From NCBI GenBank assembly GCA_030688615.1, contig JAUYIZ010000158.1, forward strand, positions 1 through 44,979: a stretch of DNA of 44,979 nucleotides. Reading direction: 5' to 3'. Below, piece by piece: positions 22,520 through 41,751 of this stretch (positions are counted from its first letter, which is position 1; every line of letters begins with the position of its first letter). The notes beneath the pieces are model-generated. The model did not search any database. It was given only the letters and a program-made list of their open reading frames with translations, and was not told the DNA's origin. Position numbers and translations under genes: made by a program. The DNA is from Desulfobacterales bacterium. GTDB lineage: Bacteria; Desulfobacterota; Desulfobacteria; Desulfobacterales; JAUYIZ01.

Positions 22520-22612
22520 CGTTTTATTCCTCCTTTTCAGCTGAAAAAACCAAACTGCCGTGGTTCACTATAACCTTATATTAAATATTTTTGCGACTTT
22601 CAACGATACTTT

Positions 22613-22660
22613 TGAAGACCCTGCAGCAGGATGCGGGCAATGCGCTCGCTGTTGCGGTTC
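22613..22660 (+). repeat. Dispersed palindromic repeat, copy 1
   Basis: Reads tgaagaccctgcagcagg, atgcgggcaatgcgctcgct, gttgcggttc. Related copies lie at 39358-39380 (partial), 39432-39479 and 42430-42479. Its core can form the hairpin ccccgcag/ctgcgggg seen best in the other copies. It falls in the divergent gap upstream of the molybdoenzyme gene and explains the spurious N-terminal extension of that frame. Confidence 0.6.
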
Positions 22661-22755
22661 ATTTCGGTTGTGCACAATGCTGCTTGACAGCGACGGCAAC
22701 AATTATTTATCATTGCCCGAAATCCTCAACCAAAAAACAACAGGAGATCTCGGCC

Positions 22756-25122
22756 ATGAAAACAACGGTGCAAACGTACTGTCCCCAATGCAAATCCCGC
22801 TGCGGTGTGATCTGTGAAATCCAGGATGGACATCTGACCGGCATACGCAAGGACCCGGATCATCCCAACGCGGTGAATTTGTGCCCCAAGGGTCTGGCCG
22901 CTCCTGAACTGGTTTATCACCCGGAACGCCTGCGACATCCCTTGAAACGCACCCGGCCCAAGACGGATCCGGATCCGGGATGGCAGAGAATATCCTGGGA
23001 TGCGGCCCTCAACGAGATTGCCGAGCGGCTGCAGACCTGCAAAACGACCTGCGGGCCGGAGAGCGTTTTTTTCGGTCAAGGCGCCTCGGGAGGCACGCCG
23101 GCCAACGACTATCGCGACTGGGTGACCCGGCTGGCGCTGGCTTTCGGCAGCCCCAACGGCGGTCTGGGCACAACCCACATCTGCAACTGGCATAAGGACA
23201 GCGGGTCAAAATTCACCTACGGCACCCCTATTCCGACGCCGGACTTTGAAAATGCCCGGACCATCCTGCTCTGGGGGCACAATCCCTTTGCGACCTGGCG
23301 CAGGCATCTCGAAGAGATCAACAGGGCCCGGCGGCGGGGTGCAAAAATCATTATCATCGATCCGCGCCGCAGTGAAACCTGGCACAAGGGGGATTTATGG
23401 CTGGCGGTGCGCCCCGGCAGCGACGGCGCTCTGGCCCTGGGCATGCTGCACGTCATGATCGCAGAAGGGCTTTATGACCGGGATTTTACCGTCAACTGGA
23501 CCAACGCGCCTTTTCTGGTTCGCACGGACACGGGTAAATTCCTGCGGACAGCGGATCTGCCCGGCGGTTTTCCGGGGCATCATTATCTGGCATGGGATCC
23601 GGACCGCCAGGGGCCCCGGGCGTATGACCCTGCCGTCCGGCAAGGGTGGCAGTCCGCCTTGCCGGCCCTCCAGGGGAGCTTTACGGTGGCGCTGCAGGAC
23701 GGCAGGCAGGTGACCTGCAAGACCGTTTTTGAGCTTCTGACGGAACTTGTCGCGACCTACCCGCCGGAGAAGGTCCAGGAAATCACATGGGTGGCGGCAG
23801 ATCTGATCCGGGAGGCGACCCGCCTTTTCACCGGCAACGGACCGGCCTGCTACTACAGCTACAACGGCCTTGAGCAGCACACCAACGCCATGCAGACGGG
23901 CCGGGCCGTCAACATCTTTTTTGCCCTGACGGGCAACTTCGATGCGCCCGGCGGCAATGTGCTCTTTCCGCGCGTCAAGACCAACCCGGCACACGGAAAG
24001 GACCGCCTTCGTCCGGCCAAGCCGCCCCTGGGCAAACATGCGCGGCCCCTGGGGCCCGACAATGTCCAGGCAAGAGATTTCTATGAGGCCGTCCTGACGG
24101 GCAAACCCTACCCGGCCAAAGCCCTGATGGCTTTCGGCGGCAATGTCCTGATGTCCAACGGCGACACGGAACGGGGCAGAAAAGCCCTGGAGCAACTGGA
24201 TTTTTTTGTGCAGGTGGACTATTTTGAAACCCCGTCGGCCAGAATGGCGGATATCGTCCTGCCGGCCGCATCCCCCTGGGAGGCTTTTCTGCTTAAAACC
24301 ACCTTTGAAGGCGGCCCGCGCACCAGCACCTACCTCCAGCTCATGGACCGGGCCGTTGCGCCCTTTTATGAAGCCCGCGGGGACATCGACATCGTCTTTG
24401 ATCTGGCCGTCAGGCTCGGCCTGGCGGAAAACTTCTGGGACGGCGATATCGAAGCCGCTTTCAATTACCAGCTGGCCCCGGCCGGGATCACGGTTGAGGA
24501 TCTGAGAAAACACCCGGGCGGCCTTTTTGTTCCGGCGCCGGTTACTTATCAGAAATACAGGGAGCCGGCCGGTGACGGCAGGCTCCGGGGATTTCAAACT
24601 CCTTGCGGGAAAATGGAAATCTATGCGGAAACTTTTCTTGAAAACGGATTCCCTGCCCTGCCGGCGTATGTCGAGCCCATGATGAGCCCGGTCAGCCGGC
24701 CGGACGTGGCGGCCAGGTTCCCTCTGGTGCTGACCAACAAGAAGCTGTTAAGCTATTGTCACGGGCAGCACCGGGCACTGCCCGGCCTGCGTAAAATCGA
24801 TCCGGACCCTTACGTGGAAATTCATCCGGACACCGCCGCCGAGTTGCAGATCCGCGAGGGCGCCTGGGTGGCCCTGGAAACGCCCTTTAACCGCATCCGG
24901 GTAAAGGCCAGGTTAACCACCGGGATTCACCCCCGGGTGGTCTGCACGCAACACGGCTGGTGGCAGGGCTGCAGTGCCTTGAACCTTGCCGGTTTCGACC
25001 CTTTCAGCGATGCCGGCGCCAACGTCAACCGGACGATCGTCAATGACCTGGCCGACCCCATTACCGGGTCGGTCTCTCACAAGTCCATGCTGTGCGCCCT
25101 GCACCCGGTGGCGCCGTCATGA
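22756..25122 (+). CDS. Molybdopterin (DMSO-reductase family) oxidoreductase
   Basis: 788 residues. The N-terminal [4Fe-4S] site is Cys9, Cys12, Cys16 and Cys43 (CPQCKSRC, NLCPKG). Cys143 in HICNWHKD is at the place where this family supplies the Mo/W ligand. Further family segments are LLWGHNPFATWRRHLEEINR, IIIDPRRSETWHKGDLWLAV, YSYNGLEQHTNAMQTGRA, ADIVLPAASPWEAF and the C-terminal MGD-binding domain (LVLTNKKLLSYCHGQHRALP, CTQHGWWQGC). There is no Tat signal, so it is probably cytoplasmic. The Cys spacing resembles acetylene hydratase, but the Asp that follows the second cluster Cys there is Lys13 here, so that function is unlikely. The substrate is unknown. The ATG at 22756 follows GGAGATCTCGGCC. 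No Fe-S or membrane subunit gene is adjacent. Confidence 0.9.
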   Translation: MKTTVQTYCPQCKSRCGVICEIQDGHLTGIRKDPDHPNAVNLCPKGLAAPELVYHPERLRHPLKRTRPKTDPDPGWQRISWDAALNEIAERLQTCKTTCGPESVFFGQGASGGTPANDYRDWVTRLALAFGSPNGGLGTTHICNWHKDSGSKFTYGTPIPTPDFENARTILLWGHNPFATWRRHLEEINRARRRGAKIIIIDPRRSETWHKGDLWLAVRPGSDGALALGMLHVMIAEGLYDRDFTVNWTNAPFLVRTDTGKFLRTADLPGGFPGHHYLAWDPDRQGPRAYDPAVRQGWQSALPALQGSFTVALQDGRQVTCKTVFELLTELVATYPPEKVQEITWVAADLIREATRLFTGNGPACYYSYNGLEQHTNAMQTGRAVNIFFALTGNFDAPGGNVLFPRVKTNPAHGKDRLRPAKPPLGKHARPLGPDNVQARDFYEAVLTGKPYPAKALMAFGGNVLMSNGDTERGRKALEQLDFFVQVDYFETPSARMADIVLPAASPWEAFLLKTTFEGGPRTSTYLQLMDRAVAPFYEARGDIDIVFDLAVRLGLAENFWDGDIEAAFNYQLAPAGITVEDLRKHPGGLFVPAPVTYQKYREPAGDGRLRGFQTPCGKMEIYAETFLENGFPALPAYVEPMMSPVSRPDVAARFPLVLTNKKLLSYCHGQHRALPGLRKIDPDPYVEIHPDTAAELQIREGAWVALETPFNRIRVKARLTTGIHPRVVCTQHGWWQGCSALNLAGFDPFSDAGANVNRTIVNDLADPITGSVSHKSMLCALHPVAPS

Positions 25123-25152
25123 AGGGAGCCGCCGCGGGGGGAAATCTTTTCC

Positions 25153-25181
25153 TTGACTCCCGGGCGCTCCTTTGGCATATT
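25153..25181 (+). promoter_or_regulatory. Possible sigma-70 promoter of the solute-binding protein gene
   Basis: TTGACT (25153-25158), a 17-base spacer and CATATT (25176-25181), about 75 bases upstream of the ATG at 25257. The match is moderate. Confidence 0.35.
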
Positions 25182-25256
25182 AAGATTCGGAACAAGGCAG
25201 CTCCAGTCCCACCATTCCCCGTATCTTCACGTCTAATTTTTGAAAGGAGATGAAAA

Positions 25257-26372
25257 ATGAAACAGCTCCATGTCATCCAAATGGCCGCAATGTTGTTTTT
25301 GATTTTTCTGCCCTTTGCTCCCCGGGCCGTGACAGCCGCCGCCGATGCGCAACCGACCTGGCAGGCAACATGGGAACAAACACTTCAGGCCGCCCGGCAG
25401 GAGGGAAAAGTGGTCTTGTACACCACCGCCGGACCCAACATACGGAAAGATTTCACCCGCGCCATGAAGGACCGCTACGGCCTGGACATGGAGTTTGTCC
25501 CCGGCCGCGGGGCTGCCATGGTCAACAAGGTTTTAAGTGAGCGGCGGGCCGGCCTGTTCCTGGGGGACGCCTATATGAGCGGCAGCACTTCCACCATGGA
25601 CAAGCTGATTCCCCGGGGCGTCATGGATGTGCTGCCGCCGGAATACATCCTGCCGGAAGTGAGCGACCCGGGCAAGTGGTACGGCAACAAGCTGCCTTAC
25701 ATCGACAAGGAGCAGCGGCTTTTGGGTTTTCGCGGCAGTCTTTTCTGGGCTTTTACCATCAACACCTCCCTGGTCAAGCCCGAAGAAGTGGCTTCCTATC
25801 AGGATCTGCTCAAACCGGCTTTTAAAGGCAAGATCAGCATGGGCGATCCCACCATCCCGGGCGCGGCCAACTCCTTTGTCACCCTGGCGTCCGAATACCT
25901 CATGAGCCCGGCATACATCAAAGAGCTGGTCAAGCAGGAACCCTTTTTATCGCGGGATGAAAGGCTTGCGACCGAATGGGTCGCCAGGGGCAAGTACAGC
26001 ATCCTGATCGGGACCAAACCCGGCCCCATCACCGAATTTATCAAGGCGGGCTCGCCGCTTCTGCCCATCATTCCCAGGGAAGGCTCCATGATCGAGCCGG
26101 GGGCCGGCACCATCTCCGTCATAAACAAAAGGCCCCATCCCAATGCCACCCGGATCTTCATCAACTGGCTTCTTTCCAGAGAAGGCCAGCTCGTTTATTC
26201 CAAAGCGACAGGGGCCGAAAGCGCCCGGGAGGACGTCCCCAAAGACCATCTGGGCGCCGGACTGGTCCGGGAGCCGGGAAAAAAGTATATTTTCGGCGGC
26301 AGTGAGTTCCGCAAGATCGCCAACAGGATCGTAGCACAATCCAAAATTGACTTTAAACCGCTGATGAAATAG
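25257..26372 (+). CDS. Periplasmic solute-binding protein, ABC Fe3+-type family
   Basis: 371 residues. Signal peptide 1-29 (MLFLIFLPFAPRAVTA). The mature protein starts near a WEQTLQAARQEGKVVLYTT segment. It carries family blocks GLDMEFVPGRGAAMVNKV, SLFWAFTINTSLVKPEEV and PNATRIFINWLLSREGQLVY, as in iron(III)-type (type 1 periplasmic) binding proteins. The ligand is probably an organic acid or metal complex; it cannot be told here. GAAAGGAGATGAAAA precedes the ATG. There are no permease or ATPase genes next to it, so it is an orphan binding protein like its relatives at 37993-39117 and the fragment at 32066-32533. It may serve the preceding molybdoenzyme. Confidence 0.88.
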   Translation: MKQLHVIQMAAMLFLIFLPFAPRAVTAAADAQPTWQATWEQTLQAARQEGKVVLYTTAGPNIRKDFTRAMKDRYGLDMEFVPGRGAAMVNKVLSERRAGLFLGDAYMSGSTSTMDKLIPRGVMDVLPPEYILPEVSDPGKWYGNKLPYIDKEQRLLGFRGSLFWAFTINTSLVKPEEVASYQDLLKPAFKGKISMGDPTIPGAANSFVTLASEYLMSPAYIKELVKQEPFLSRDERLATEWVARGKYSILIGTKPGPITEFIKAGSPLLPIIPREGSMIEPGAGTISVINKRPHPNATRIFINWLLSREGQLVYSKATGAESAREDVPKDHLGAGLVREPGKKYIFGGSEFRKIANRIVAQSKIDFKPLMK

Positions 26373-32065: not shown

Positions 32066-32533
32066 TCACTTGGTCTTCTTTTTTTTCGACTGCAGAAATT
32101 TTCCTCCCGTATCCAGGACTATTTTCACCTCTTTTCTCAGCCTCTCGAAATCTTTGGTGAAATAGATTTCCAAAATTTTCGGGTCCCGCGTCGTATGAAC
32201 CTCGCGAATACCCTGTTTTTTGTTTTGCATGGAAATGTCATGCTCAAAGTTGCCGGGGTAGTACAAATTGCCTTCCCCGGATTCCTCTACAGTAAACTTG
32301 GCCCCCGCCGGGCTGGCAAGGAAAACGCCCACGAGTTTGGCGGCATTGGGATGCCTTGCCCCCTTTCGTACCGCCAGAGAATAATTTGAAACATCGGCAA
32401 AATCCAAGGCTTGAAATTCAGCCGGCATGCCTTTAGCTCGCGCGCTCATTACCAATTGGCTGCCGAGGATACAGAAACTGATTTCGCTGAGCAGATAGCG
32501 AGCCTGCATCTCGGCATATCCCCCCTGCTCTGA
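32066..32533 (-). pseudogene. C-terminal fragment of an ABC Fe3+-type solute-binding protein
   Basis: The frame reads (from just after the stop of the next gene upstream) GYAEMQARYLLSEISFCILG, FQALDFADVSNYSLAVRKGA, RHPNAAKLVGVFLASPAGAK, NLYYPGNFEHDIS and so on. These are the last 155 or so residues of a binding protein of the same broad family as 25257-26372 and 37993-39117. The N-terminal half is gone: the homology begins within a few bases of the TAG that ends the 715-residue gene. This is a deletion or recombination joint, not a functional gene, although an ATG at 32509 gives a 147-residue frame. Confidence 0.72.
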
Positions 32534-34681
32534 CTACTTCGCCAGCGGATCGGGCCGAAGCTGGAAGTGTACCACCAGCGGCTTTGAACCCTTGCCGCCT
32601 TCCATGAGCCACGGCGTCCGGTCACCGCTTGTCGTCCACAGTCCCCGGCCTTTCCAGCCAGAATTCGGATCGTCGATGCGCCCGTCGAACCCCTTGGCGT
32701 AGAAGCCGAGCGGGTACGGTACGCGCAGCGTGACCATCTGGCCGTCCTTGAGGGCAATAAGCCCGTCGTTGAGATTGCCCGTCGACATCGGCACGTCGTC
32801 CCCGAGCCCGAACGTGTTGTGCTGGTCGACCCAGGTGTAATAGCTTGATTCCGCGCTATTCTCCCCAATCCCTTTGAAGCCGGGGCCGGGGTACTGGTAG
32901 AAGGTCCATCCTTCGCGGCAATGATTGCCAGTTGCCTCTGGACCGTTGAGCGGCCCCTTGCACTTGCGGCGGTCGAAACTGCCCATATGACCGCTCCCCA
33001 GCGACACCCAGACAACGCCCTGCTTGTCGATATCGCCACCGCGAGGGCCGAACCCGGGCAGGGGGATGTTGTAGATTTCCGTAAGCGCGGTCGCCGGCGG
33101 GTTGGGGCCGGGATCGAGCCGCACGACCTTTCCTGTCCCGCCCTGGACTCCAGCGGTGCCCCAGACAGAGCTGTCGACCGGGCTCGGCATCACCGCGTAG
33201 AAGCCGGCGATGACCTGCTTATCCTTGGTGAGATCCACGGGGTCCTCTGGTCCGACATAGGAGTCTCGCTTGCCGTTGCCGTTGGTATCCAGGATCAACG
33301 CGGTCCAGCCCTGGGACTTTGCCGCGTCACCCGTTTCCAGAAACTCCTTGGTGTTTAGCCAGCCGACCACGGTGCCCCCGCCGCTGGTCCACAAGGTGTC
33401 GTTCGCATCGTAGCCGAACTGCAGGTGATGGGTCGAGAAGCAAGTATCGATCATCGTATATTTCTTCGTCTTCGGGTCAAACATGGACAGATGGCGGCTG
33501 CTCTTGCCCAGCGGAATCAACTTGGCCGAGGGATGGTCCGATCCCTCCTTGCAGGCACTGGGGTTGTTTTCGTTGCGCACCCGCGCCGCGAACCACACAC
33601 GCCCCTGGTTGTCGAACATCGGGTTGTGATTGCTGGTTTTACTGTTCCAAATCATTTCGTCGCCCCAAAAGGCCGAAGGCATCACCGGCTTGGCGATGGC
33701 ATGGCCCGCCCTTGCAACCTTAGTGCCTTTCATCGTAGGCGCTTCGAAGGCCCACGTCACATTCTTGACCGGGTCGAGCACGGGAATGGCGTCGGTGCTG
33801 AACTCCGGCGAGCCGTATAACGGGCCGAAGGCATTGACCGTCGGGTTCCGGCGATCGGTGGAGATCAGGTCGTGAAGGTAGTGCTTTTCGGTATGCCAGT
33901 CGCGCACGGTGACCACGATGTTGCGCTCCACGCCTTGCGGACGGGCCGGCTTGGCGTGGGGCAGCTCGCCCTTTGCCACGCGGTCGGTCCAGTCGCCAAA
34001 GTACTTGAACGGCATGCCGCCCAATTTGTCGACCAGGGCACCGGTCATTGCGCTGCCAGCCTGGCCGGACTGTACGCGGCGCCTCCAGCCTTCCTCCCCG
34101 GTGCCGAACGCCGCGGGGATCGTGCGGGTCGCAAGATTGCCCAGCTGATGACAACCAACGCAGCTGCGATTTTTCATGAACGCGAGCCAGTCGGTCTGCT
34201 TGATCTTGGCAGGTATGTCGCTCTTGCCACCGAACCGGCGCTTGTCCGGAATCTCAAGCATCGAGTACCAGTAGATCGCCGGATAGTACTGGGCGGCCGC
34301 CGCATCGTTGGGGGCAGCAACGGCTTTGAGGTTCACGATCTTGCCGGGCGCGCTCTCGGAAAAGGCCGAGTCCACGAGCCCATAGCCGCGTACCCAGATG
34401 TCGTAAGTGGCGTTCGGCAAATCAGGCAGGACGTAACGGCCGCTATCATCGGTCACGACGATCTTGATGAACCGGGTCCCGAGTTCTTTCGTCTCAGCGA
34501 TCACCCAGACACCCGCTTCAGGCCCGTTGGGTCCGGTGACAACGCCACCAATGTCGTCGCGGTCGATCGCGACATCCTGGGCTGTGGCCGACCCGAGGCT
34601 CACGGGCAGTGCGAATCCAGCAAGCACGGCGGCAAAAATGACCAACCTCGCAATTGTGTTACGAGCAGATTTTTTTAACAC
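32534..34681 (-). CDS. Exported CxxCH beta-propeller-like protein with regulatory-like domain
   Basis: 715 residues. Signal peptide 1-36 (ending ATAQ). Residues about 38-115 form a carboxypeptidase-regulatory-like beta-sandwich (GVVTGPNGPEAGVWVIAETK, DDSGRYVLPDLP). A haem c attachment motif CVGCH follows at about 176-180. The rest is a repeat-rich region with the look of a streptogramin-lyase-like propeller (DNQGRVWFAAR, DANDTLWTSGGG, KQGVVWVSLGSGHMG). Family members are annotated only as 'carboxypeptidase regulatory-like domain-containing'; a periplasmic c-type cytochrome-linked enzyme is plausible. GTG start after AAGGAAGGAAC. Base composition and style look more like alpha/betaproteobacterial genes than the neighbours, which suggests transfer. 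Confidence 0.82.
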   Translation of the reverse strand: MLKKSARNTIARLVIFAAVLAGFALPVSLGSATAQDVAIDRDDIGGVVTGPNGPEAGVWVIAETKELGTRFIKIVVTDDSGRYVLPDLPNATYDIWVRGYGLVDSAFSESAPGKIVNLKAVAAPNDAAAAQYYPAIYWYSMLEIPDKRRFGGKSDIPAKIKQTDWLAFMKNRSCVGCHQLGNLATRTIPAAFGTGEEGWRRRVQSGQAGSAMTGALVDKLGGMPFKYFGDWTDRVAKGELPHAKPARPQGVERNIVVTVRDWHTEKHYLHDLISTDRRNPTVNAFGPLYGSPEFSTDAIPVLDPVKNVTWAFEAPTMKGTKVARAGHAIAKPVMPSAFWGDEMIWNSKTSNHNPMFDNQGRVWFAARVRNENNPSACKEGSDHPSAKLIPLGKSSRHLSMFDPKTKKYTMIDTCFSTHHLQFGYDANDTLWTSGGGTVVGWLNTKEFLETGDAAKSQGWTALILDTNGNGKRDSYVGPEDPVDLTKDKQVIAGFYAVMPSPVDSSVWGTAGVQGGTGKVVRLDPGPNPPATALTEIYNIPLPGFGPRGGDIDKQGVVWVSLGSGHMGSFDRRKCKGPLNGPEATGNHCREGWTFYQYPGPGFKGIGENSAESSYYTWVDQHNTFGLGDDVPMSTGNLNDGLIALKDGQMVTLRVPYPLGFYAKGFDGRIDDPNSGWKGRGLWTTSGDRTPWLMEGGKGSKPLVVHFQLRPDPLAK

Positions 34682-34845
34682 GACCTGTTCCTTCCTTTTT
34701 TTGATAGCCTCTTCAGGAGTCCCCTCTCTTGAGCAGAGAATATCACACTTTTTATCTTACACGGGTGAAAAGTTCACCGGGTATTTCGGTTCCCAGATCT
34801 TTTTGGTGAGGCATAAAAAACTATTTTCCGGAATAATCCTGCTCT

Positions 34846-35454
34846 TTAAATCGGCCTTCTATCCAATGTAAAAATATCCGTCGTCCGGCAATAGATATTC
34901 CCTTCACCTAGTCGGCCGATGATTTTCGCCTTGATCGGATCCACTTTTCCATCCGTCAATATTTCATCCTGGATATGAACCAGTAGAATTTCCCCGAAAA
35001 CAATGCTGCTCATGCTGGGTTTTTGGCCCAACTCCAGTACCTGCATGAGCCGGCACTCCAAGCTGATAGGCGCCTCCAGTATGCGGGGGGATTTAATCTT
35101 TTCGCTATTTATCGCTGTAAGGCCGACTTCTTTCATTTCATCGATTCCCGGCGGATAATCGGCCCCGGCCTGATGCATGGTCTGGCATAGATCCTCATCG
35201 ACCAGGTTGACAACAAAATCGCCGGTAGATTCGATATTTCTGATCGTGTCTTTTTTTTTCCCTTTACGTCTGCCCGCTGCAAAAACCAACACCGGTGGAC
35301 TGGCCGTCAAACGGACAAACGCGCTGAAAGGAGCCGCGTTATATCTGCCCTCTGCATCCAGAGTGGAAACGAAGGCAATGGGCCGGGGGGTGATCAATCC
35401 GGCGAAAAAATGGTGAAGATCCTTTCGGGGCAAGGTGATCGGTTCAACTTTCAT
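34846..35454 (-). CDS. Flavin reductase-like FMN-binding protein
   Basis: 202 residues. It follows the flavin_reductase-like fold: LITPRPIAFVSTLDAEGRYN, AAPFSAF, the KKKDTIRNIESTGDFVVNLV block and SIVFGEILLVHIQDEIL near the end. Such proteins bind FMN and pass electrons from NAD(P)H to flavin or a partner enzyme. The ATG at 35454 is chosen because GGAGGTACCA is directly upstream; a start at 35466 would bury that site. It lies 86 bp downstream of the reductive-dehalogenase-like gene in the same direction, so it may supply that enzyme with electrons (inference). Confidence 0.88.
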   Translation of the reverse strand: MKVEPITLPRKDLHHFFAGLITPRPIAFVSTLDAEGRYNAAPFSAFVRLTASPPVLVFAAGRRKGKKKDTIRNIESTGDFVVNLVDEDLCQTMHQAGADYPPGIDEMKEVGLTAINSEKIKSPRILEAPISLECRLMQVLELGQKPSMSSIVFGEILLVHIQDEILTDGKVDPIKAKIIGRLGEGNIYCRTTDIFTLDRRPI

Positions 35455-35539
35455 TGGTACCTCCATCGGTTTGGGTTAAAATGACGGTTAGGATGCTTTC
35501 GTGGACATTGCCGTGACTATTTTTCGTGCAGGTGAAAAC

Positions 35540-36667
35540 TCACTTTTCTCCATCCGCTACTTTCAGATCCATCCACCACTGATTTTGACGTTTTGGTTTT
35601 CCGTATCCCATGATATCATCGGCCCAGACGGCAAAGTTTCTGAGCAGGGGAATGTTCCTCATGGTCCACCGGACCGATCTATGAAAGGGTGTGTACGGTT
35701 TATTCCAGGGGCAAACGTTGATGCATACGCCACAACCGACGCCTTTTTTATTTGCCCTGCGGTAAATGGTGCATTTTTTCACATCCATGGGCCAGGTTTC
35801 ATACCCGTTCCGGAAAATTTTATCTCCGGAGCTGATAGCGCCGGAAGGGCATTCCCGGGCGCACTTTTTACACTTGGCGCAAAAATCCTGGAGCCCGAAA
35901 TCAATGGGTCTGTCCGGAACCAATGGAAGATCCGTGGTCACCACCGCGGCTTTAAACCTCGGACCCAAAAAGGGATTGACAAGGGCGCCACCGATACGGC
36001 TCATTTCTCCTAACCCGGCCCAGAGCAGAACCGGCGGAATTACGATCTGGTTATTTCCTTGCATGTGTGCACGCGCCGGATAACCAAGCCTGCGGATGTA
36101 ATCGGCCAGCATACAGGCGATAAAACCTGAAGCAGTATAGGAGCGATACGCCATGGATGTGCTGATCCAGTCGTCACCGGTGCTTGCCTCTGAAGTTTTC
36201 CAGTCCTGATCAACCAAAATCGCAATGGCATATTTATGATTCAATTCAATAGGATCACCGGTTGGATTGCTGTACCTGTATACTGCATAGGGGGGCAATT
36301 TGCAGACGCCCACCAGGTCTGCCCTAAAAAAGTAAGCGGTCTCCTTGATGTGGCAGGTGATTTTTTCTGGATCGTCCGACTGGGGCGTCAGATTGACCAA
36401 AACATCACCATCAGCGCTTTTACGCAGCAATCCTTGCATGTTTTGCAAAACATCGGAAAGAGGATGCGTTGTATTTTTTGCCTTTGGATCATTGCCGAAC
36501 TCTCCGCGCCGGTATTTGTTAAAGCCGGCTTCCCGTTCATCTGCCCGTTGAATTTTTTCTTCGTTTATCCGGATGGTCGGTCGATCCACGCGCTTTAGTA
36601 TTTTGACCGGATAAGGATCCAAACGTTCGGTGTCTGACCCGCGCAAATAAGTTGTGATGCTGCTCAT
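35540..36667 (-). CDS. Reductive-dehalogenase-like (RdhA-type) double [4Fe-4S] protein
   Basis: 375 residues. The C-terminal half has the RdhA layout: GLGEMSRIGGALVNPFLGPR, TTDLPLVPDRPIDFG, a first ferredoxin motif FCAKCKKCARECPSGAI (about 260-276), and a second motif with the typical wide first gap (KKC-x12-CGVCINVCPW, about 300-325). The N-terminal half contains the corrinoid-domain-like GFIACMLADYIRRLGYPA region. There is no twin-arginine signal, so it should be cytoplasmic, like the non-respiratory dehalogenases, and no rdhB-type anchor gene is present. Epoxyqueuosine reductase QueG is a distant relative with a different second motif. AAGGAGGATTTTAA precedes the ATG. It may dehalogenate or reduce an aromatic; the substrate is unknown. 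Confidence 0.82.
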   Translation of the reverse strand: MSSITTYLRGSDTERLDPYPVKILKRVDRPTIRINEEKIQRADEREAGFNKYRRGEFGNDPKAKNTTHPLSDVLQNMQGLLRKSADGDVLVNLTPQSDDPEKITCHIKETAYFFRADLVGVCKLPPYAVYRYSNPTGDPIELNHKYAIAILVDQDWKTSEASTGDDWISTSMAYRSYTASGFIACMLADYIRRLGYPARAHMQGNNQIVIPPVLLWAGLGEMSRIGGALVNPFLGPRFKAAVVTTDLPLVPDRPIDFGLQDFCAKCKKCARECPSGAISSGDKIFRNGYETWPMDVKKCTIYRRANKKGVGCGVCINVCPWNKPYTPFHRSVRWTMRNIPLLRNFAVWADDIMGYGKPKRQNQWWMDLKVADGEK

Positions 36668-36913
36668 TTAAAATCCTCCTTATTGTGTCCTGTAACCCAA
36701 AAAGGTCATAGATCAACGGTAACAAGAGTTCTCGGGGAAAGTACAAAACCAAGCCATCAGAGGAACGTAAAAATACTTTAAAATAAAAGACAAAAGATCT
36801 TATCAAAACGAGGAGAGCGTGTAAAGATCCAAGAAAGGGGAGCTGCGGTCTAATAAATTTCGGGCAGCGGGACAAAAACCGTTTGGTATTTCATAAAACC
36901 CCAAGCTATCACG
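36668..36913. other. Intergenic, nothing recognised
   Basis: Leader of the reductive-dehalogenase-like gene on the minus strand and the edge of the IS630 remnant. No clear promoter or hairpin was found. Confidence 0.35.
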
Positions 36914-37115
36914 ATGAAAATCTCAGAAGCTGCAAACATTTTGTTGAGATATTCAGAAGGCATGCCGATCACCGAGATTGAAAAGGGGACTCAAGTAAGC
37001 AGGCCTACGGTTTACAAATGGATAGAGAAGGCATTGGCTATGGGGATCGATGAGGGCCTGAAAGACAAATTTCATCGCCCCAAAGAGCGGGTGATAACGG
37101 GCAGAAGATGGCTGC
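36914..37115 (+). mobile_element. IS630-type transposase remnant (N-terminal HTH)
   Basis: The frame reads AANILLRYSEGMPITEIEKG, TQVSRPTVYKWIEKALAMGI, DEGLKDKFHRPKERVITG: the helix-turn-helix N-terminus of IS630-family transposases. After VITG it runs into unrelated sequence, namely the opposite strand of the broken enzyme gene at 37118-37204. The catalytic DDE domain is absent, so it cannot move by itself. Confidence 0.72.
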
Positions 37116-37117
37116 GG

Positions 37118-37204
37118 GAACATCTTTTGCAATTCCCCAAGACCCGCACCGCGCCCCTCCGTGGATGGTTTCATCATACCCACAAGAAAATTTCCATCTT
37201 TCAT
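37118..37204 (-). pseudogene. 5' fragment of an AMDase-like paralogue, cut by the IS630 remnant
   Basis: From the ATG at 37204: MKDGNFLVGMMKPSTEGRGA, GLGELQKMFPQP. This aligns with the start of the intact gene at 37253-37975 (MKDGKYILGMMKPSSLGRGE, SSAEMSKMLPPN). After about 29 residues the sequence becomes transposase remnant. So a second copy of the enzyme gene once stood directly downstream of the intact one and was destroyed by an insertion followed by deletion. Confidence 0.75.
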
Positions 37205-37252
37205 TTCAGACTGCTCTTTTCAATAGTTGCATAAAAACAGAACCCGGTAAAA

Positions 37253-37975
37253 TTAATGGTCCCGCAGTAACCTTCCATAGCCCGGTGTCGGCGTTTTTAT
37301 CCCGATCAACCTTAGAGCCCCCCAAATTCCAGCCTGGGCACTGGCGATAACCGGCAAGCCGGTCTCCTTTTCCAACGGCTCAATGATTTCGCTAACCGGC
37401 CAAGCGGCACAAGGGATAAAGAAACATTCTGCATCAGGCGCCTCCTTAACTCCTGCCAGAGCGAGGTCATAAGGAACGGAGGCAGGCATTTTTGGGAATT
37501 CCTCAAAGGGGGCATCGGCCGTTTTTAGGCTGCTAACTTTAAATCCTGCATCATGCAGATAGGTTATGATCGACTGGTTTATATCATCCTTGAAAGGGGT
37601 TACCAGAACGATCCTTTTTGCCCCGAAGAGTCTTATGGCCGCATCGACACTGGTTTGTGAAGTGGTGGCGGGGATCGGGGTTACCCGGTTTATTCTCTCT
37701 ATGATCTTGGCATCAAATCCGTAACCGCCGGCCACAACCGGCGGTGTGCCTCCCATGCTGATCACATCAACGTATCTGGCCGCCAGTTCGGCTGCGACAT
37801 CTTCTATGCGGGAAAGAGCGGCGGCAAGTTGGTGGCCCGCCAGGTCTCGAATTCCTAAGGCCGCAGACGTGGTAGTGACATTAGGCGGGAGCATTTTACT
37901 CATTTCGGCGCTGCTTTCTCCGCGCCCCAACGAAGAAGGTTTCATCATTCCCAGGATATATTTGCCATCTTTCAT
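37253..37975 (-). CDS. Asp/Glu racemase-superfamily enzyme, arylmalonate decarboxylase-like
   Basis: 240 residues, family length. Two-fold alpha/beta layout. The first active-site loop is DVISMGGTPPVVAGG (Gly75, Gly76, Thr77) and the second is FFIPCAAWPVSE (Cys189). Racemases and maleate isomerase have a Cys in both loops; arylmalonate decarboxylase has Gly in the first and a single Cys (Cys188) in the second. The pattern here is Gly plus one Cys, so a cofactor-free decarboxylase is more likely than a racemase or isomerase (inference from known enzymes). AAAGGAGCG precedes the ATG. It starts 17 bp after the solute-binding protein gene, so uptake and breakdown of a malonate-like or other small acid is suggested. 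A broken paralogue follows. Confidence 0.8.
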   Translation of the reverse strand: MKDGKYILGMMKPSSLGRGESSAEMSKMLPPNVTTTSAALGIRDLAGHQLAAALSRIEDVAAELAARYVDVISMGGTPPVVAGGYGFDAKIIERINRVTPIPATTSQTSVDAAIRLFGAKRIVLVTPFKDDINQSIITYLHDAGFKVSSLKTADAPFEEFPKMPASVPYDLALAGVKEAPDAECFFIPCAAWPVSEIIEPLEKETGLPVIASAQAGIWGALRLIGIKTPTPGYGRLLRDH

Positions 37976-37992
37976 TCCGGTTCGCTCCTTTA

Positions 37993-39117
37993 TTACCTCT
38001 TTAAGTGTGCGTCGATGATTTCCTTAGCAACCTTTTTCATCCTGCCCTTGAAATTGATATACTCTTCGCTATCGTAGAATACCTTATCTCCAGGTTTAAT
38101 CATGAATGTAGGGTTAATCCCTTCTGAAGAAACATCTACCCGCATAACAGGCGCCCCTGTACCCTGGGAAAAAATGGTCTGACCTTCTTTTGTCAACAGC
38201 CAGTTTAAAAATACCGTTCCAGCATTGGGATGGGCCATGGTCTTGGGTATGGCTACCACTCCGTTTTCATGGGATGCACTGACTTCCTTCAGGGGGACAT
38301 CCGAAATAGGCGCGCCTATCCTCAAAAAATGTTCTACCGCTGAGCCCTGGGTGCCCAAGCCGATAGCGTACTTGCCTTTTGCTACGCTCTCAACCTGACC
38401 ACGGTAGCTCCTGGTAAGCACCACTTTTTGATCGGTTATTAGTCGCCGCAAAAATACCTTGGCTTCTTCCAGGCTCCACAGGCGGGTCAGGAATGAGAAA
38501 AAGGCATTTCCTGATCCCTGATTAGACGGATCGATTAAATTGATCTTACCTTCATATTCTGGATTCAGGGCATCTTTATAGGAGGTCAATTCTCCCTTTT
38601 TTATTAATGTCGTATTATACGTAAAATAGCGTTGGGCTTTCATTGTCATCGGAATGACCGTGTGTTCCTTATCCGGAAATGGGATCTGTCCGTCCGGCCA
38701 GGCTTTGGGGTCCAGGACTTCAGGGAGGATAAGGAGCGGTTCAATCTGGCCGAGAAGCCCCATGGGTTTCATGCTGGTCAGAAAAGTATTGGTTCCCTGA
38801 GCGATTATATCGGCCAGGTACAGTCCCGCCCGCTGTTCAGCCTGCATTTTGGGGATAATTTCCGACCCGCGGCCTGCGACAAAATCCAGATTAATGCCGT
38901 ATTTTTCTGACATAGCCTTGGAAAGGCTTGTCCTTGCTCTTGGGCCCCAGGAAGTATAGATGCGCACTACTCCTTCCGCTTTCCCTCGGTCCAGGAGGGT
39001 ATTCCATTTTTCTTCCCAAGGGGCCTTTCCCGATGCCATGGCTTTTGGGGCCCCTGCAACAAAACAGACCCCCAAGAGACAAACCAAACTCAGCCCAACG
39101 ATTAAGGTCTTTTTCAT
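37993..39117 (-). CDS. Periplasmic solute-binding protein, ABC Fe3+-type family
   Basis: 374 residues from the ATG at 39117 (CGGAGGGAAATGTT upstream; a longer frame to 39165 only adds residues before the signal peptide). Signal peptide 1-27 (LSLVCLLGVCFVAGAPKAMA). Family blocks: WNTLLDRGKAEGVVRIYTSW, YGINLDFVAGRGSEIIPKMQ, AEQRAGLYLADII, IPKTMAHPNAGTVFLNWLLT, KEGQTIFSQGTG. It is clearly related to the protein at 25257-26372. No membrane or ATPase genes are beside it. The next gene, 17 bp downstream, encodes the AMDase-like enzyme, which may act on the imported ligand. Confidence 0.88.
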   Translation of the reverse strand: MKKTLIVGLSLVCLLGVCFVAGAPKAMASGKAPWEEKWNTLLDRGKAEGVVRIYTSWGPRARTSLSKAMSEKYGINLDFVAGRGSEIIPKMQAEQRAGLYLADIIAQGTNTFLTSMKPMGLLGQIEPLLILPEVLDPKAWPDGQIPFPDKEHTVIPMTMKAQRYFTYNTTLIKKGELTSYKDALNPEYEGKINLIDPSNQGSGNAFFSFLTRLWSLEEAKVFLRRLITDQKVVLTRSYRGQVESVAKGKYAIGLGTQGSAVEHFLRIGAPISDVPLKEVSASHENGVVAIPKTMAHPNAGTVFLNWLLTKEGQTIFSQGTGAPVMRVDVSSEGINPTFMIKPGDKVFYDSEEYINFKGRMKKVAKEIIDAHLKR

Positions 39118-39357
39118 AACATTTCCCTCCGTGATAAGGTTGGCAGGACATTCCGTCATTCCCATTTTTTCAGCTTAGCCGAGTATCAAGACCGTTTTCA
39201 AATGCGGATTAATGGAACTTGTAAACTGTTCGGTCAATACAGAGGGCAAAGTTCAGCCCGGAAAATCCAACTATCAAAGAAGAGATTTAAGATCTATCGT
39301 TGTCTATCACGTAATAAATTGTCCCGCACTTAATTGTCAACTTCAATTTCTGAAAAT

Positions 39358-40260: not shown

Positions 40261-41054
40261 TCATTTACGCATATTTTCTTTAGCGCGGGTACTATTTTTG
40301 CCGGACAGGCCGTATTTTTCCCAGTTTTCCTTCACACGTCTCATCGTTTCCCGATCGGGCATGCATGCGATCTCGAACTTGTCAGCATCGTACCTGGTGG
40401 CGTCGATTATCATCTTGGACGTTCTTGAGGTGCCCGTAGCCTTCGAACTTCTTCTCTATCGAGACGATGCAGTTGAAAGCCCCGCACCCACCTTCCGTCA
40501 CGTGCACCTTCTTGATCCCGGGGAGGGAAACGCTGCGGAAGATTTCAAGCTCGATAGGAATGCCCTTCAACTGGCAGTCTTCATGGGGGGGTTTGCCGAC
40601 ATAAGCGGCAAGGAAGATGGGGTTGTCAGGGTGCGGTGGAAGCAATGTGGACGACGGGGTCGCAGCCGAGGGCCAAGGCAACGGGTAAAGGTTCATTCGG
40701 CCTTTTGTTCCTGTGAAGCATGATGTGCCGGTAGGGAGCGGCCAGGATCCCCAAGGTATTACGAAGGACGGGATCGATCGGTTTCACAACCCTTCGCATC
40801 CAGTCCGTATGAAGATTTTCAGGCTCGCTGCCCAGAGCCATGGCATACCGTTTCCGGGAGGCAACCAGGTTGGTGACAATAGGAATGGACGAGCCTTTCA
40901 CATTTGAAAAGTACAGGGCAGGAACGTTCCGGTCAAGGGCCATCCTGCAAACGGCGCCGATTTCAAATCGGGGGTCTACCTCCACTTTTGTTCGAACCAA
41001 TTCTCCCTGCCCATCGAGGTATTCGAGGAAGCTGCGCAGATCATCAAAAGACAT
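40261..41054 (-). pseudogene. UbiD-family decarboxylase, decayed by deletions and frameshifts
   Basis: From the ATG at 41054 (AAAGGAGGATTTTTT upstream) it reads as a normal UbiD N-terminus (FDDLRSFLEYLDGQGELVRT, YFSNVKGSSIPIVTNLVAS, GILAAPYRHIMLHRN, LALGCDPVVHIASTAP). At about 40640 the frame shifts and jumps to a later block (HPDNPIFLAAYVGKPPHEDC, then GIKKVHVTEGGCGAFNCIVS), skipping about 100 residues. At about 40430 it shifts again and jumps to the C-terminus (KMIIDATRYDADKFEIACMP, RRVKENWEKYG), ending at TGA 40261-40263. Intact UbiD proteins have about 480 residues and use prenylated FMN to decarboxylate aromatic or related acids. This copy lacks the central active-site part. Confidence 0.85.
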
Positions 41055-41751
41055 AAAAAATCCTCCTTTTTGAAACGAAGCCCCTTGTATGATTCTCTCC
41101 AATTGGAGGCCGTCAGAATAAAATTTTTATTTAAGACATTCTTATCCGGGTTTGCAATAAAAAAGCAGACCCGGTCCAGAGCTATTTTTAGAAGTTTCTT
41201 TTCAACTGCGACCGGGAAGGTTGCCCCGGTGTCGCGGCTCAAAGGAAAGCAGACAGATTTAAGGAAAAATATCCGGGTATAATACACTCAAGGGAAGGGG
41301 GGGGCAAATGGAACAATTTCCCCGCCGCTATATGGTTTCAGGTTTATTGCAGAATACCTCTTGAAACTATTGTATTTCACGCCAGCCAGGATTGGTGATA
41401 AGGAACCTCCGCCGTGCCCGGTGGACAGGTTAAATAAAAGGCCGGTTCAGTAGTCTTACGCAAAGGCAAGACATCGGCCGTCCGTAAAACCAATGATGTC
41501 TGAGATTGTTTTCCGAAAGAATTTCAATTAATATCTATCGTCTTCCTTATTTCCAAAAAATCTCGAAGGCTTTTGGATGAATATACCTCCCATCATTAGC
41601 GATCGCCAGCCTATCATCAGCTGGAAATCGACATTTTTTCGGGCTGCGGTGGAATATCCGATGAACCTGCAGAACCGTGATACCCTAATTTATCTAAAAT
41701 GGTGAAATAAACTGCTGTAAAGAATTGTTTTGGACATTGGGAAAGTTGGAG
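41055..41751. other. Intergenic, repeat remnant only
   Basis: Contains the upstream region of the UbiD pseudogene (a ggtataatacactc string near 41275 could be a -10 box on the plus strand) and the diverged repeat at 41465-41530. A minus-strand piece reading ADVLPLRKTTEPAFYLTCPP (about 41420-41480) is open but has no start or recognisable family. No gene is supported. Confidence 0.35.

Follow-up and report, generated by a model that had tools for sequence, protein, structure and literature searches.

A single-module reductive dehalogenase-like gene in a Desulfobacterales genome probably lies beside, and not in one pathway with, a binding-protein and decarboxylase-like gene pair

Does a set of four neighboring minus-strand genes, encoding a periplasmic substrate-binding protein (SBP), an arylmalonate decarboxylase (AMDase)-like enzyme, a reductive dehalogenase-like protein (RdhA), and a flavin reductase, form one pathway? 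The genes lie within 4.3 kb of a 44,979-nucleotide contig (JAUYIZ010000158.1 of assembly GCA_030688615.1; hereafter, the window) of a Desulfobacterales bacterium with sulfate-reducing relatives, the host assembly of which has 429 contigs and 4.78 Mb (completeness 92.9%, contamination 6.2%). A preliminary description of this DNA had taken the genes as one continuous uptake-and-breakdown cluster. Open reading frame (ORF) calling found all four at the place described, with intact frames, and the family matches agreed with the assignments that had been made. The actual order of the region, from the SBP gene onward, also includes remnants of an AMDase-like gene and of an insertion sequence (IS), as follows.

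37993 to 39117, minus strand: periplasmic SBP (SBP_bac_8, Fe3+/phosphonate-type fold) with a signal peptide; PF13416, 47.9 bits
37253 to 37975, minus strand: AMDase-like protein (Asp/Glu racemase superfamily); PF17645, 125.9 bits
37112 to 37204, minus strand: start of a truncated second, tandem AMDase-like gene (MKDGNFLVGMMKPSTEGRGAGLGELQKMFPQ)
36914 to 37234, plus strand: N-terminal fragment of an IS630-like transposase; NF033545, 33.9 bits, positions 3-57 of 299; HTH_28
36801 to 36841, minus strand: RdhA leader block, 93% identical over 41 bp to that of a decayed paralogue on contig C30
35540 to 36667, minus strand: single-module RdhA catalytic core, 375 aa; TIGR02486, 209.4 bits (cut-off 160.35)
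34846 to 35454, minus strand: flavin reductase-like protein (PF01613, RutF/NTA-monooxygenase-B group); 84.9 bits (gathering threshold 27)

Only 17 bp separate the SBP gene from the AMDase-like gene, and 73-85 bp separate RdhA from the flavin reductase gene, depending on the start chosen for the latter; because of these short gaps, each pair may be co-transcribed. The AMDase-like gene and RdhA are 585 bp apart, and this gap contains the truncated AMDase copy and the opposite-strand IS630-like fragment, which argues against one continuous cluster. The truncated copy retains the first ~31 codons and is 55% identical to the intact protein over residues 1-31 of the latter; the IS630-like fragment, which consists of the first ~80 residues of the transposase (the helix-turn-helix part only), runs into and cuts it. 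The GC content of the gap segment is 43%, compared with 48-53% in the flanking genes. Tandem AMDase-like genes recur elsewhere (loci L119, L121, L130, and L138), so a truncated second copy fits the pattern. No complete IS630 copy was found among the own-genome loci examined, and a 27-bp match on contig C318 was rejected as an IS copy since it sits in a restriction-modification-like locus without a transposase. Linkage across the scar is doubtful. We consider it probable that two adjacent units came to stand side by side after an IS630-like element had inserted and decayed and that they do not form one pathway; the four genes are unlikely to be functionally linked as a whole.

The neighborhoods of relatives were then compared. 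RdhA relatives were examined at 17 loci of ~14 organisms, with 3-20 kb around each, from 12 genomes of the same order, from Acidobacteria and Fibrobacterota, and from one contig mislabelled Dehalococcoidia. No homologue of the AMDase-like protein, the flavin reductase, or the SBP adjoins any of these 17 loci, even at an E value of 0.05, and RdhA is present in none of 23 AMDase loci; a search for the same gene set in other genomes, as the preliminary description had proposed, thus did not find it at the RdhA or AMDase loci examined. Most of the related RdhA genes are solitary and have a divergently oriented regulatory gene next to them, LysR in L042-L045 and a GAF/sigma-54 activator in L046, L047, L049, L050, and L052, whereas the window RdhA is flanked by the IS scar and the flavin reductase gene. 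The contig labelled Dehalococcoidia (L005; JASLZO010000001.1) was rejected as an independent locus, its proteins being 98.8-100% identical to those of the Acidobacteria metagenome-assembled genome contigs L004 and L006, and is probably mis-binned Acidobacteria DNA.

In a tree of 39 RdhA modules, the window RdhA was placed in a clade of 16 entries, all single-module proteins, as sister to an Acidobacteria RdhA (support 98/99). This clade spans Desulfobacterota, Acidobacteriota, and Fibrobacterota, with 54-65% identity to the window RdhA, and its sister group (100/99) is formed by the functional modules of the BhbA-type catabolic RdhAs. In L043-L045, RdhA has a CoA ligase gene close by, a hint that members of that subclade act on an aromatic acid. 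The closest relative belongs to a gene run of Acidobacteria UBA2161/NP133 (L004 and L006; RdhA identity 65%). In L004 (6506-16118), genes for a Na+ symporter, RdhA, a second RdhA, an SdhA-like flavoprotein, a ferredoxin, two ABC permeases, an NMT1-type SBP, and an ABC ATPase follow one another on one strand, and this run is a candidate operon for the whole of import and dehalogenation, electron carrier included. Like the window, L004/L006 has stand-alone RdhA, accompanied by uptake genes and by redox proteins encoded separately; unlike the window, it has two RdhAs, the symporter, the NMT1-type ABC transporter, the SdhA-like flavoprotein, and the ferredoxin, and it lacks SBP_bac_8, AMDase, and flavin reductase. 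Locus L041 has a sensor kinase, a response regulator, and a branched-chain-type ABC operon downstream of RdhA, and on pBHB, a tripartite tricarboxylate transporter (TTT)-type SBP gene stands directly upstream of bhbA. Uptake genes beside RdhA are therefore a sensible general idea, and uptake, RdhA, and a separate electron carrier are indeed combined elsewhere, from components other than those found here.

The RdhA-like protein itself is, as judged from its sequence, a real and probably functional dehalogenase that is cytosolic and non-respiratory. Both 4Fe-4S motifs are present, CX2CX2CX3CP as CAKCKKCARECP and CX2CX3CP as CGVCINVCP, and the match to the functional module of NpRdhA (4ras) scored 318.8 bits in phmmer. 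The vestigial N-terminal domain of NpRdhA also matches, more weakly, and the window RdhA has no such domain itself. In the alignments, Y177, K239, and R302 correspond to Y426, K488, and R552 of NpRdhA (numbers assigned by counting along the 4ras chain), which act in proton donation and in binding of the phenolic hydroxyl (PMC7565698). In the pocket, the equivalents of S422, A419, M423, and K307 are Ala, Thr, Tyr, and Asn, respectively, and owing to these changes, the substrate probably differs from that of NpRdhA. K307 of NpRdhA touches the substrate carboxylate (PMC7565698); its change to Asn makes the carboxylated part of the earlier proposal, a halogenated or carboxylated aromatic acid, weak, while the CoA ligase of the related subclade leaves an aromatic acid possible.

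The cytoplasmic reading of the preliminary description was borne out. There is no RR motif of a twin-arginine translocation (Tat) signal at the N-terminus and no fused C-terminal reductase domain in the 375 aa; the ORFs of 100 aa or more in its vicinity included no RdhB anchor, smaller ORFs, of RdhB size, not having been examined. Of the marks of a respiratory RdhA, the Tat signal peptide is thus absent, and an adjoining RdhB was not found among these larger ORFs. Of the marks of a catabolic RdhA, a cytosolic location, the absence of Tat, and grouping with catabolic RdhAs were found, and a duplicated N-terminal cobalamin domain was not. Like NpRdhA (Nitratireductor pacificus), BhbA (Comamonas sp. 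7D-2), and JtRdhA, the protein is cytosolic and without Tat and has two 4Fe-4S motifs and the Tyr/Lys/Arg set, the functional module being ~37-41% identical in plasmid relatives. Unlike NpRdhA and BhbA, it does not have the vestigial N-terminal cobalamin-domain duplication, NpRdhA and the fused plasmid RdhAs matching twice, and it has no C-terminal reductase. In being single-module and without Tat, it resembles the non-Tat RdhAs of Deltaproteobacteria, for example, of Desulfobacula (PMC6299228), and the Roseobacter catabolic Ros_A3X954 (PMC13101508).

Two decayed RdhA paralogues are present in the own genome (C30:2045-2783 and C125:194-596); they are 85-86% identical and contain stops and deletions. 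The dN/dS values of RdhA against these two fragments are 0.27 and 0.15, indicating that its sequence was under constraint. RdhA is preceded by its own Shine-Dalgarno sequence, and the leader block overlaps a weak sigma-70-like match (36825-36797); in a sigma-54 promoter search, the site count was at chance, and no site was found before RdhA. An Rfam search of the window gave no match. With regard to cobalamin supply, a cobalamin riboswitch precedes a TonB receptor gene in the host genome, ABC transporter genes lie on the same contig, a CbiA-like gene is present, and CbiC was not found in the genome; corrinoid salvage by the host is likely. From homology, we infer that RdhA binds a corrinoid and acts as a dehalogenase.

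The AMDase-like protein had been described as a single-Cys enzyme, and the equivalent of C188 is indeed kept, with Gly at the position of Cys74. It was compared, for identical or similar residues, by the 12 residue criteria of PMC4996985 (T75, S76, Y126, G189, G74, C188, pocket residues, and two motifs). G74, T75, and C188 are kept, whereas S76P, Y126F, G189A, and Y48L are changes, neither motif is preserved, and the dioxyanion-hole residues are altered; by this sequence comparison, the protein is not an arylmalonate decarboxylase. NF052327 gave 121 bits against a cut-off of 225. The protein resembles Bordetella bronchiseptica AmdA (3dtv) in fold family, in G74/T75/C188, and in an adjoining transporter gene (PMC4996985); it differs in that the match is only ~84 bits and in that the motifs LMGTSLSF and ILLSCGGL read SMGGTPPV and FIPCAAWP. 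AMDase-like matches are rare (7/292 sampled genomes of the same order and 11/395 of the same phylum). An SBP, tripartite ATP-independent periplasmic (TRAP), TTT, or ABC transport gene lies within ~3.8 kb at 13 of the 23 AMDase contigs, and transport genes beside true AMDase genes are a published pattern (PMC4996985), so the pairing of an uptake gene with the AMDase-like gene is a recurrent one.

The longest ORF of the SBP begins at 39165, and the ATG at 39117, with the signal peptide, is the likelier start. Besides PF13416, related SBP models matched it, the solved structures closest to it in the PDB are iron(III)-type SBPs, and no permease or ATPase gene was seen beside it. The own genome contains 97 PF13416 matches, ~1 per 49 kb of 4.78 Mb, so an adjoining SBP says little about shared function. 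The window alone contains two SBP genes (25257-26372 and 37993-39117) and an SBP remnant (32066-32509; 53.7% identity over 136 aa to an SBP on C30). Matches to the PF00528 permease domain number 37 in the genome, many of them paired in one fused permease, versus the 97 SBPs, an unusual expansion in which most SBPs are apparently orphans.

The flavin reductase gene starts at 35466 or 35454, of which the latter, after GGAGG, is likelier. The protein matches NTA monooxygenase component B and NbaA (4z85) over its whole length (110-123 bits), and its best PDB relative is the 2-nitrobenzoate nitroreductase 4z85 (123 bits). PF01613 proteins usually produce reduced free flavin. Six are encoded in the own genome; the two paralogues examined most closely, on C336 and C317, are 42-45% identical and do not lie beside RdhA, and at none of the RdhA loci of relatives that were examined does a PF01613 gene adjoin RdhA. 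These findings speak against the earlier suggestion that a separate flavin reductase is the donor to RdhA, a role that is possible but unsupported. The premise of that suggestion, that catabolic RdhAs carry a fused reductase, stands for BhbA and JtRdhA and fails for NpRdhA, the structural prototype, which has no fused reductase and uses separate ferredoxin partners (PMC10463259).

A further broken gene lies upstream of the SBP gene.

40382 to 41102, minus strand: UbiD decarboxylase remnant; UbiD_N, 82.6 bits, and UbiD_C, 24.8 bits, in separate frames

It retains the N-domain and part of the C-domain, most of the central domain being gone. In the reading that we favor, that of two adjacent units, the SBP would be co-transcribed with the AMDase-like enzyme, once a tandem pair, and this unit would take up and process some organic acid, possibly linked once to the broken UbiD. 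The other unit would be the stand-alone cytosolic RdhA, perhaps co-transcribed with the flavin reductase gene. RdhA would most likely hold a base-off corrinoid and two 4Fe-4S clusters and receive electrons from a cytosolic ferredoxin or flavoprotein; its Tyr/Lys/Arg set would take an ortho-halogen off a phenolic or aromatic substrate, and the dehalogenated product would pass into ordinary catabolism.

Several observations weigh against this reading. In a promoter scan of the window, promoter-like sites were no more numerous than in shuffled sequence, and the terminator signal barely exceeded chance; no promoter or terminator signal above chance parts the two units. Adjacency of SBP and RdhA genes is seen a second time in the own genome, on C30, where a broken RdhA copy stands directly behind the gene for a different SBP, near an adenine-deaminase-like amidohydrolase gene. 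The AlphaFold model of RdhA is of low confidence (mean pLDDT 57.7), and its top Foldseek match, NpRdhA, merely agrees with the sequence result. At locus L121 of one other genome, AMDase, SBP, PF01613 flavin reductase, MmgE/PrpD, AMDase, and UbiD genes are brought together within 8 kb, without RdhA; given this set and the broken UbiD here, the flavin reductase could belong with the SBP/AMDase side rather than with RdhA.

It is unlikely that the four genes form a single pathway, as first proposed. In that case, a halogenated or carboxylated aromatic acid would be brought in by the SBP, the AMDase-like enzyme and RdhA would act on it in turn, the flavin reductase would feed electrons to RdhA, and the IS fragment would merely have landed inside the operon. 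The common strand and the small gaps within each half are consistent with such a pathway, the conserved leader and Shine-Dalgarno sequence keep RdhA expressible, uptake genes stand beside RdhA in L004, L041, and pBHB and an SBP gene before the C30 copy, and stand-alone RdhAs with separate redox partners are known (PMC10463259). Against it, the set occurs in no relative examined, the IS scar lies between the halves, several AMDase residues and both motifs are changed, the number of SBPs makes such adjacency cheap, and the flavin reductase has paralogues away from RdhA and none of its kind beside RdhA relatives. We regard as highly improbable the form of this pathway in which the SBP supplies a halogenated aryl acid that the AMDase-like enzyme and RdhA take apart as a pair, and in which a minimal one-module cytosolic RdhA draws its electrons from the PF01613 flavin reductase and not from a ferredoxin or fused reductase.

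Alternatively, the flavin reductase could work with the SBP, AMDase-like, and UbiD genes, with RdhA alone an inserted newcomer, and either serve an oxidoreductase elsewhere or be a nitroreductase. The L121 set, the AMDase loci without RdhA, and the nitroreductase as best solved relative point this way; but identity to the L121 proteins is only 32% for the flavin reductase and only 22% for the SBP, which in L121 matches PF13343/PF01547, L121 is one locus and may be chance, and the flavin reductase gene here directly follows RdhA, which makes this explanation quite unlikely. That the region is simply decaying, with RdhA the last intact copy of a family under loss and the genes without a current joint role, as the two broken RdhA copies, the broken UbiD, the truncated AMDase, and the SBP remnant would suggest, is very improbable given the intact RdhA frame, its catalytic residues, a dN/dS well below 1, and the intact SBP and AMDase-like genes.

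Other features of the window were also noted. The gene at 32534-34681 (minus strand) encodes a 715-aa exported protein with a carboxypeptidase-regulatory-like domain and a CXXCH haem motif, without a functional family match. At 22591-26372, a molybdopterin oxidoreductase gene is followed by the other SBP gene, with a 2-hydroxyacid dehydrogenase gene upstream on the opposite strand, a possible second uptake-and-oxidation unit. A nearly invariant block of ~50 bp lies 5' of three unrelated genes (32534-34681, an FAD flavoprotein gene, and an SBP gene), with the following copies.

34751 to 34833 of the window, minus strand: ~50-bp block
C78:3593-3675 of the own genome: ~50-bp block
C368:6885-6938 of the own genome: ~50-bp block

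The block has no Rfam match and no stable fold and is absent from the viral contigs searched.

The neighborhood of this RdhA is chance-like and IS-scarred, and the kind of enzyme is already known; what gives the locus its value is not the four-gene combination but the RdhA clade, together with the Acidobacteria gene run. The absence of a PF13486 match was rejected as evidence against RdhA, because 14 control genomes gave none either and TIGR02486 detects the family. PF13486 matches Ros_A3X954 (PMC13101508), but it gave no match in the window RdhA, in the own genome, or in the one relative scanned, and since it matched none of the proteins tested, Pfam-based surveys may miss the single-module clade. 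Its members, from Desulfobacterota, Acidobacteriota, and Fibrobacterota, are small, soluble RdhAs that lack a Tat signal, the vestigial domain, and a fused reductase, and the Acidobacteria run of two RdhAs, SdhA-like flavoprotein, ferredoxin, and transporters supplies a candidate electron donor for the clade.

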